Of a stretch of 47,928 bases of DNA, positions 1 to 47,928 are shown piece by piece (position 1 is the stretch's first letter; every line of letters begins with the position of its first letter). The notes under the pieces were generated by a model. The model ran no database searches, had not been told where the DNA came from, and saw only the letters and a list, made by a program, of their open reading frames with translations. The stretch comes from Methylacidiphilum sp. Yel (lineage in GTDB: Bacteria; Verrucomicrobiota; Verrucomicrobiia; Methylacidiphilales; Methylacidiphilaceae): NCBI RefSeq assembly GCF_004421185.1, contig NZ_LXQB01000013.1, positions 1-47,928 on the forward strand, read 5' to 3'. The position numbers and the translations under genes are program-made.

Positions 1-99
1 GATGAGAGTGTCAGGGTCTATCAAAACCTCAACACCCTCATCGGAGAGCTTGCCCTGGCTAAATCTGGTCAGTTATCTCCAGGAATCCCCTGCCTTTAG
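1..99 (+). CDS. Possible 3' end of an IS200/IS605 tnpB-type gene (partial)
   Basis: An open frame enters from the left edge and runs 32 codons to a TAG at 97-99. The stop lies inside a strong hairpin, and the sequence after it matches the pattern usual just downstream of tnpB (OrfB) genes: a CCCC..GGGG stem followed by GAGGATGTCAA. The residues themselves are too few and too variable to prove the family, so the call rests on context. If correct, most of the gene lies outside the window and would encode an RNA-guided TnpB nuclease of an IS200/IS605 element. It could instead be chance open frame. Confidence 0.4.
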   Translation, partial: DESVRVYQNLNTLIGELALAKSGQLSPGIPCL

Positions 100-118
100 G
101 CATGGGGAGGATGTCAAT
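84..118 (+). mobile_element. IS200/IS605-type right-end hairpin
   Basis: An imperfect palindrome CCCCTGCC-TTTA-GGCATGGGG (88-108) is followed by AGGATGTCAA. This is the form of the right end of many IS200/IS605-group elements, whose ends carry subterminal hairpins rather than inverted repeats. It abuts the truncated 3' end of the DruA-like pseudogene, so the element end probably lies near 118. A near-identical palindrome occurs at 47827-47847 at the other edge of the window. Confidence 0.55.
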
Positions 119-725
119 TGCGCGTGTATACGAAACTGAAGAGAAGAATTTTGCCTACTCCCACTAATCAATGATCTTCTGCCCTTATATTTATTGCAGA
201 ACATTTCATAATTTGTCGCAGGATATAGAGCATTCTTGTTAGTTTTCTTCCCATCAAAAATGAACATAGCGGATGGCTCCAAGTACATAAGCTTCCATCA
301 TATATAAGCCTCCATAATATGATACAGGTAATATGCTTTATTTTCATTGTGCCTCCAATCCAGCGGTTTTGTGCTTGCATTGAATAAACTGGATTCCTAA
401 GCCAAATAAGCAGATTAACTTGTCATTGTTTTCATCAAACACAACAAACCAAAGCCTTTTGCCATATCCAGCAGAAAAACTCTAGGGAGACAGGTGTAAT
501 AAAAAAATAGCTCCTGCTTAAATTCCGAATTCACAACAACGAACTTCAGACGATTGCTGCTCCTCAGGGCTATTTCCATTCGATGGGGACATTTCAGAAA
601 ATGTACGCAACTTCCAGAAGTCAACCCCAAAGCCTGGACGGTGGACTTCAACATGAAGAATGAAAAGGATTGAGAAAGTGGTATTAGTAGAAAAGAGTAC
701 AGCAAAAACAATAAAACTCCACTTA
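118..725 (-). pseudogene. Frameshifted, truncated DruA-like (DUF4338) gene
   Basis: No single frame is open, but reading the minus strand across three frames gives an ordered series of segments that resemble the DUF4338 / Druantia DruA family. They are: FVVVNSEFKQELF (about 500-545), SAGYGKRLWFVVFDENNDKL (about 424-483), an RWIGG segment (about 350-380, the family's ARDxWIGW block), MMEAYVLGAI (about 270-300), and NKYKGRRSLISGS (about 155-215). The order and spacing match an intact member, so at least three frameshifts and internal stops have accumulated. The 3' end stops at the IS200/IS605-type hairpin, suggesting truncation by that insertion. DruA is a component of Druantia anti-phage systems. 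Lone DUF4338 genes also occur outside them, and no other Druantia gene is visible here. Confidence 0.65.
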
Positions 726-784
726 AGATTACTCCATGAGGTTTGATGTTAAAGAGGAACTGTCAAATTTGATCTTTTGAAATC

Positions 785-859
785 TGGCTCCGGAGGTAGG
801 ATTCGAACCTACGACCAAACGGTTAACAGCCGTCCGCTCTACCACTGAGCTACTCCGGA
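785..859 (-). tRNA. tRNA-Asn (anticodon GTT)
   Basis: The minus strand folds as a complete cloverleaf. The acceptor stem is TCCGGAG / CTCCGGA, the D arm contains AGCTCAGTGGTAGAGC, the anticodon loop is CTGTTAA giving GTT, and the T arm is GGTTCGAATCC. The 3' CCA is encoded in the DNA. The gene is 75 nt and sits alone, upstream of and divergent from tlyA. Confidence 0.97.
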
Positions 860-1132: not shown

Positions 1133-1885
1133 GTGAAAAAAGAAAGGCTTGATCAGTTACTAGTGCGCAAGGGGATGGTTTCTTCCAGAGAAGAGGCCCA
1201 AAGGCTCATTCTTGCAGGGCAAGTTTTGGTCTTGGATAAACCTGGAGCTATACTGAAGCCAAGTAAGCTTCTTGATCCCAACCAACCTTTAGAAATCTCC
1301 CAAAGGCAAAAGTACGTAAGTAGAGGTGGTTACAAACTGGAAGCCATTTTCCAAGCATCTCATTTGAATGTAGAAGGGAAAGTGTGCTTGGATGTTGGTT
1401 CTTCTACAGGAGGATTCACTGATTGCTTGCTTCAGCATGGAGCACAAACTGTGTATTGTATTGATGTAGGGAAAGGGCTTTTACATTGGAAAATAAGGTC
1501 TGATCCTAGAGTAAAAATTATGGAAGGGATAAATGCGCGGTATTTGAAAAGGGAAGATTTCGATCAACTTTTTGATGTGATCACGGTTGATGTCTCCTTT
1601 ATTTCACTAAAATTGATTCTTCCCGCTCTTATCCCTTTGCTCAAAGCCGATGGATTTATTTGTGCTTTGATTAAGCCGCAATTTGAAGCAGGGAAAAAGG
1701 AGGTTGGGAAAAAAGGAGTCGTTAGAGACAAGAACGTTAGGAATCGAATCATCAAAGATCTCGAGTTTTGGCTTGCCACTACCTTTCCCATGAAAACGTC
1801 TATAATTATTCCTTCTCCAGTTTTAGGACAGGAAGGGAATCAAGAGTATTTGTGGCTAATGAAAAAAGAAAGTGGTTTTGCTTGA
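1133..1885 (+). CDS. tlyA: TlyA-family rRNA 2'-O-ribose methyltransferase
   Basis: The protein (250 aa) has an N-terminal S4 RNA-binding domain (about residues 3-62, RLDQLLVRKG... and the RGGYKLE linker) followed by an FtsJ/RrmJ-type Rossmann methyltransferase domain. The SAM-binding motif I is CLDVGSSTGGFTD (about 85-97). The likely catalytic tetrad is K68, D153, K181 and E185. TlyA enzymes methylate cytidine riboses in 16S and 23S rRNA; some members have been annotated as hemolysins. The GTG start at 1133 is needed to keep the S4 domain whole, because the first ATG falls inside it. There is no clear Shine-Dalgarno site. The gene stands alone, 325 bases before uvrA. Confidence 0.9.
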   Translation: MKKERLDQLLVRKGMVSSREEAQRLILAGQVLVLDKPGAILKPSKLLDPNQPLEISQRQKYVSRGGYKLEAIFQASHLNVEGKVCLDVGSSTGGFTDCLLQHGAQTVYCIDVGKGLLHWKIRSDPRVKIMEGINARYLKREDFDQLFDVITVDVSFISLKLILPALIPLLKADGFICALIKPQFEAGKKEVGKKGVVRDKNVRNRIIKDLEFWLATTFPMKTSIIIPSPVLGQEGNQEYLWLMKKESGFA

Positions 1886-47556: not shown

Positions 47557-47820
47557 AGGGTTTTTTCTATTCAGTTATTTATTTTTTAATTAATCGCGAA
47601 GACTAGTCATGGCTAGTGAAAAGCTTTTGGAATGTTTTAGTATTTAATTGCCTCCTTAACAAAAGGCTTCTCTTCCAATTCGTTTCTCCTTTTAGTCCAT
47701 ATACCGATAGACTGTTCTATCGCTTGCAGGATATTCGATTCATATAGGCCACAGCAGCTCTCTCAACTACCTGGTTTATTGACGGTATCAGCTTTCTTCC
47801 ATACTTTTACCATCCATCGC
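47557..47820. other. Non-coding stretch before the right-edge element
   Basis: No gene is recognised. It is AT-rich at 47570-47600 and more balanced from 47640 on. The stretch just before the hairpin (47690-47820) may be part of a decayed element or its flank. It holds the aldo/keto reductase promoter. Confidence 0.4.
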
Positions 47821-47824
47821 CGTA

Positions 47825-47852
47825 ATGCCCCTGCCTTCAGGCATGGGGATAT
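47825..47852 (+). mobile_element. IS200/IS605-type end hairpin at the right edge
   Basis: CCCCTGCC-TTCA-GGCATGGGG (47827-47847) followed by ATATAAGGCG. Sequences of this shape, a hairpin then GGATATAAGGCG, are common at the left ends of IS200/IS605-group elements in several bacteria. It differs by one base from the hairpin at 88-108. Downstream a -10-like TATAAT (47880-47885) is followed by a short frame, consistent with the start of the element's gene. Confidence 0.5.
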
Positions 47853-47890
47853 AAGGCGATAAATTATAGCTATGTGTAGTATAATTATGT

Positions 47891-47928
47891 ATGAACAGAA
47901 AAGAACAATTGAAATCCAATAAAAATAT
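47891..47928 (+). CDS. Possible start of an element-borne gene (partial)
   Basis: ATG at 47891 opens a frame reading MNRKEQLKSNKN that runs off the window. It lies five bases after a TATAAT box, so a transcript would begin at or next to the start codon (leaderless). The 12 residues do not identify the product; a transposase or associated nuclease gene is expected from the end hairpin upstream. Confidence 0.3.
   Translation, partial: MNRKEQLKSNKN

Follow-up and report, generated by a model that had tools for sequence, protein, structure and literature searches.

On the minus strand of the window (the whole stretch of DNA that was analysed, 47,928 nucleotides, corresponding to contig C13 of a genome of 2.25 Mb in 88 contigs, here G000), positions 139-475 hold what is, with a probability of roughly 90%, a pseudogene of the DruA family, left behind by a former occupant of a defence-island hotspot at a tRNA-Asn gene; by DNA homology the remnant extends over 132-539. 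A previous sequence-only reading had placed a decayed DruA-like gene at 118-725, of which the remnant itself stands and the extent does not, and its view that a defence gene was lost here is supported as the most likely one. The features of the window are collected in Table 1.

Table 1. Features at the two ends of the window
Feature	Position	Strand	Basis
IS right end, IS200/IS605-type	1..117	+	Hairpin CCCCTGCCTTTAGGCATGGGG then AGGATGTCAA; recurrent ends; Y1 transposase start in left end of same IS
Probable DruA (PF14236) pseudogene, core	139..475	-	Profile alignment 132.8 versus shuffle maximum 34.1; PF14236 E-values; several frameshifts and stops
Remnant as delimited by DNA homology with the DruA remnant of G003	132..539	-	74% identity
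Spacer from remnant to tRNA-Asn	540..784		DruA not recognisable; 592-780 homologous to the equivalent spacer of G004
tRNA-Asn (GTT), anchor of the variable interval	785..859	-	Also in G001-G004
tlyA-like rRNA methyltransferase gene, conserved flank	1133..1885	+	69-95% identical in G001-G004
IS left end, another copy of the same IS	47811..47928	-	Repeat comparison

Detection and extent of the DruA remnant

A profile search of the whole genome gave a single match to PF14236 (DruA, formerly DUF4338), on the minus strand at 481-260 (E = 2.5e-5); the other copies that had been expected were thus not found in the window's own genome. When the read-through minus frame was compared with PF14236 by hmmscan, we obtained E = 1.2e-5 and a score of 25.1 bits, just short of the curated gathering score of 27 bits, and a second minus-strand frame gave a weak match that is colinear with the first.

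As a test of ordered blocks across frames, the frameshift-aware search against DUF4338 that had been suggested was run as a frameshift-tolerant alignment of the minus strand to DruA profiles, and the DruA match is colinear and on one strand. With a profile of four proteins the score was 117, compared with 24.1 ± 2.6 (maximum 32.7) for 60 dinucleotide-preserving shuffles and 22.75 for the plus strand. With a profile of 18 proteins, for which 20 shuffles were scored, the aligned part runs from 475 to 139 across columns 119-226 of 400 in order (∼108 columns), which confirms that conserved DruA blocks lie in order (scores in Table 1). Neither the N-terminal nor the C-terminal part of DruA was detectable in the remnant by this alignment; for the N-terminal part, positions 480-785 scored 24.7, which is at the level of the shuffles (22.1 ± 2.3). 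The remnant therefore combines colinear conserved DruA blocks beyond chance with a score below the family cut-off, and its frameshifts and stops leave no open full-length frame of about 400 aa. Judged in this way from its letters, we would file it as a decayed relative of DruA rather than as a member gene of the family.

Homologous remnants in congeners

In G003, a genome of the same genus, the homologous stretch is better preserved than that of the window. It has a 91-aa open piece, followed by a frameshift, which matches PF14236 at 2.1e-26 (93 bits, above the cut-off) and the DruA of PADLOC at 3.7e-26, and over ∼75 aa this homologue shares 45-51% identity with DruA of Meiothermus and Nitrosococcus plasmids. 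With this piece at hand, the idea that the similarity arose by chance, or that it points to some other GNAT-like or transposase gene and not to DruA, is hardly conceivable: the Pfam score of the remnant, slightly below the gathering cut-off, would agree with it, but the profile alignment lies far above the shuffle maximum and is colinear over its whole length, the G003 piece is recognised by both PF14236 and PADLOC, and no other family in Pfam outscored DruA on the same stretch.

G004 is linked to the other remnants only by 66 bp of homologous DNA at the same position, since DruA itself scored 20.1 there, which is shuffle level. In G003 and G004 alike the homologous stretch sits between tRNA-Asn and sixA, as in the window genome. 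A search of phage records with the stretch gave no match, and none of the viral contigs searched for the G003 DruA piece carries it.

Assignment of the remnant to a DruA subtype was rejected, because the best matches of the 91-aa piece are nearly tied across context types. The genus has two differing DruA types, in that a fragment in G001 groups with the type of G002 and the G003 remnant does not. Beside the remnant, a short repeated motif around GTGTCCGTCGATAAGGTCTGTGCCAACATCGG was seen in G004 (L012, about 2350-2640) and on contig C69 of the window genome (L040:300-400).

The insertion sequence beside the remnant

The sequence-only reading had recognised an IS200/IS605-type right end next to the gene, and this proved right: it finishes at 117 and is found at about 33 other places, mostly contig ends. 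Contig C69 opens with 118 bases, the left end of the IS, and the same bases occur at 28 further places in the genome. We assign the element to the IS200/IS605 type because its ends are shared by many places, TTAC precedes the IS in 26 of the 26 left-end loci examined (those whose core matched exactly), each of the two ends folds into a hairpin, and in two copies (C50 and C5) a Y1 transposase match begins immediately inside the left end; no target-site duplication is seen. Since the left end of another copy closes the window, both window ends are IS copies. The near-identical ends of this one IS605-type element lie at about 30 sites and coincide with assembly breaks, and together with TTAC before all 26 left-end flanks they suggest a recent burst of the IS. 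The window genome also has 39 matches to PF07282 (such as G000:C43:17112-17315), which are TnpB/Cas12f-like zinc-ribbon fragments, several of them interrupted by stops.

The right end of the IS lies 21 bases past the last aligned DruA codon, and the gene had been read as breaking off because of the IS, i.e. the insertion itself would have killed and truncated a DruA gene that was intact until then. We consider this very improbable. Contig C69, which was placed beside the window through homology to G003 and G004 and not by assembly, picks up the G003 sequence exactly where the window flank ends (GCGCAA/GTAAG, the slash marking the junction); G003 has no IS at the corresponding site, and DNA homology between G000 and G003 is present on both sides of the insertion point. 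Moreover, the IS-free G003 is likewise frameshifted, and in frameshift-tolerant profile alignment the C-terminal part of DruA was near shuffle level both on C69 and in G003 past the site, where the best score, 28.0 on C69, was slightly over its 20 shuffles but rested on just five profile columns, and these were not in order. In the PF14236 search across the genome, no C-terminal part of DruA was seen joined to another left-end copy of the IS. Since homology to the IS-free G003 spans the insertion point and neither genome has a detectable C-terminal part past it, this part appears to be gone or unrecognisable independently of the IS. Judging from these alignments, the IS was not what truncated the gene; it landed in DNA that was already without a recognisable C-terminal part.

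In the history that we propose, the DruA gene would have arrived with an island; its partner genes and both of its terminal parts, N and C, would have disappeared by about the time at which G000, G003 and G004 diverged, or earlier, and the remnant would now have no protein function. The IS200/IS605 copy evidently inserted later into the flank of the remnant, immediately 3′ of TTAC and without target duplication; as one of many near-identical copies, it would have struck non-functional DNA and would not be the cause of the DruA loss. The island of G003 could have come separately from the DruA gene.

A variable defence interval next to tRNA-Asn

The remnant lies in an interval that extends from tlyA/tRNA-Asn to an MFS gene. 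The MFS flank is conserved in five of five genomes, sixA stands immediately before the MFS gene in G000, G003 and G004, and in the window genome this far flank is on contig C69. From reading of the translations, we take the genes beyond tRNA-Asn to be tlyA-like and uvrA-like, and those of the far flank to be sixA and an MFS transporter gene. tRNA-Asn and the MFS gene are separated by roughly 1.8 kb (G004), 1.6 kb plus the IS (window genome), 9.5 kb (G001), 14 kb (G003) and 27 kb (G002).

What the interval holds differs among the genomes. In G002 it holds the BREX genes BrxF, BrxC, PglX, PglZ and BrxHI and a Ppl-like gene, and in G003 a methyltransferase, a gene denoted X, two HerA-type ATPases and a SIR2 protein in addition to the DruA remnant; G004 and the window genome have remnants only. 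The interval of G001 carries a Hachiman-type HamB helicase beside tRNA-Asn that is split in two frames of 414 and 781 aa (L034:2253-5710) and is probably also decaying. With conserved flanks and defence cargo that varies among relatives, the interval is a defence hotspot adjoining tRNA-Asn, in which the tRNA gene is seen as the neighbour of the variable interval and has a putative role as attachment site. Taken alone, the remnant is an ordinary fossil, a trace of anti-phage gene turnover at the tRNA-Asn site in one genus; the interval is a place to seek new defence systems in this lineage.

Partners of DruA in this and other genomes

None of the genes of Druantia type I (DruB, DruC, DruD and DruE) adjoins the remnant, whose flanks are tRNA-Asn/tlyA and, by homology, sixA/MFS, and a Druantia type I DruE query had no match in G002, G003 and G004. 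A single DruE3-like helicase occurs in the window genome, within a cluster of its own on contig C16 that has no DruA among its listed ORFs. This cluster (L167:6600-18906) consists of the DruE3-like helicase (1797 aa), a DpdE-like helicase (947 aa) and a DrmMI-like methyltransferase (1366 aa), and a similar arrangement of three large genes is found in G001. A link to classical Druantia through DruE of Nitrosococcus pNWAT01 was rejected, the own-genome match on C16 being this separate cluster.

The suggestion that an intact Druantia-like locus exists in the lineage was half right: G002 has an intact DruA of 382 aa elsewhere in its genome (L033 9674-10822), but its neighbours are of NurA and HerA type and not DruB-E. 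This DruA is followed by NurA (PF09376, 2.7e-11) and then by a HerA-type ATPase, and the triad occupies L033:9674-13835. Among 80 DruA loci from public genomes, 10 others (L083 and L086-L094) have all three genes in a row or nearly so, with an extra gene within the triad in L083, and in L140 DruA-NurA stands at the end of a contig. The further taxa with the triad (Ferroglobus, Saprospiraceae, Wolfebacteria, Chloroflexota and Gloeomargarita) are unrelated and belong to several phyla. Most of the remaining DruA loci, judged by length only, resemble classical Druantia in gene lengths and order. In four loci (L099, L104, L113 and L127) DruA is followed by a gene of 387 aa and then by a HerA-type ATPase; the 387-aa product shares 35% identity with that of a gene in the G003 island, and no relation of it to the NurA of G002 was detectable. 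Within the G003 island, the homologues of the 387-aa gene and of HerA lie beside SIR2 and a second HerA (L030:7644-11011).

In the literature searched, DruA-NurA-HerA was not found as a described defence system; one paper names DruA, NurA and HerA, but to judge from its title its subject is not defence operons. It is an unlikely reading of these gene neighbourhoods that DruA-NurA-HerA is an apparently uncharacterised, horizontally spread defence operon, i.e. a nuclease/translocase pair plus DruA without DruB-E, and that the remnant might have its origin in a cassette of this kind and not in classical Druantia. A refinement that does not exclude the pseudogene reading is that DruA stood alone or came from a cassette of the DruA-NurA-HerA type and not from classical Druantia, which we hold to be a tentative possibility. 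The G003 interval points in this direction, because its X gene (35% identity with the X of L099) and its HerA (46%) have homologues that directly follow DruA in the four loci mentioned above; however, X and HerA of G003 are on the side of the remnant that faces the tRNA gene, with SIR2 and the second HerA in between, so that the order is not DruA-X-HerA, and in some of the genomes that hold the nearest DruA relatives of the G003 piece a DruE-type helicase adjoins DruA. Because of this gene order and these neighbours, the DruA pseudogene is not assignable to a cassette type. The recurrent DruA-NurA-HerA gene set is a more interesting lead than the fossil, and is a candidate for phage-defence testing.

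Comparison with known systems

The remnant resembles DruA of Druantia (PF14236; PADLOC DruA1 PDLC00002) in the order and content of its conserved blocks (SxGYGKRL..VVFDENN.KL..LFxLG), but differs in that it is a pseudogene with about a quarter of the profile left and no DruB-E adjoining. The insertion sequence shares with IS200/IS605-type sequences the subterminal hairpins at both ends, the insertion 3′ of TTAC without target duplication and the Y1 start inside the left end, although it is known here from its ends and not from one full assembled copy. Compared with the core defence hotspots of Pseudomonas aeruginosa (PMC10250203), the tRNA-Asn interval belongs to another lineage and has other anchor genes; it is like these and other chromosomal defence hotspots in its variable defence content between conserved flanks, here in five congeners.
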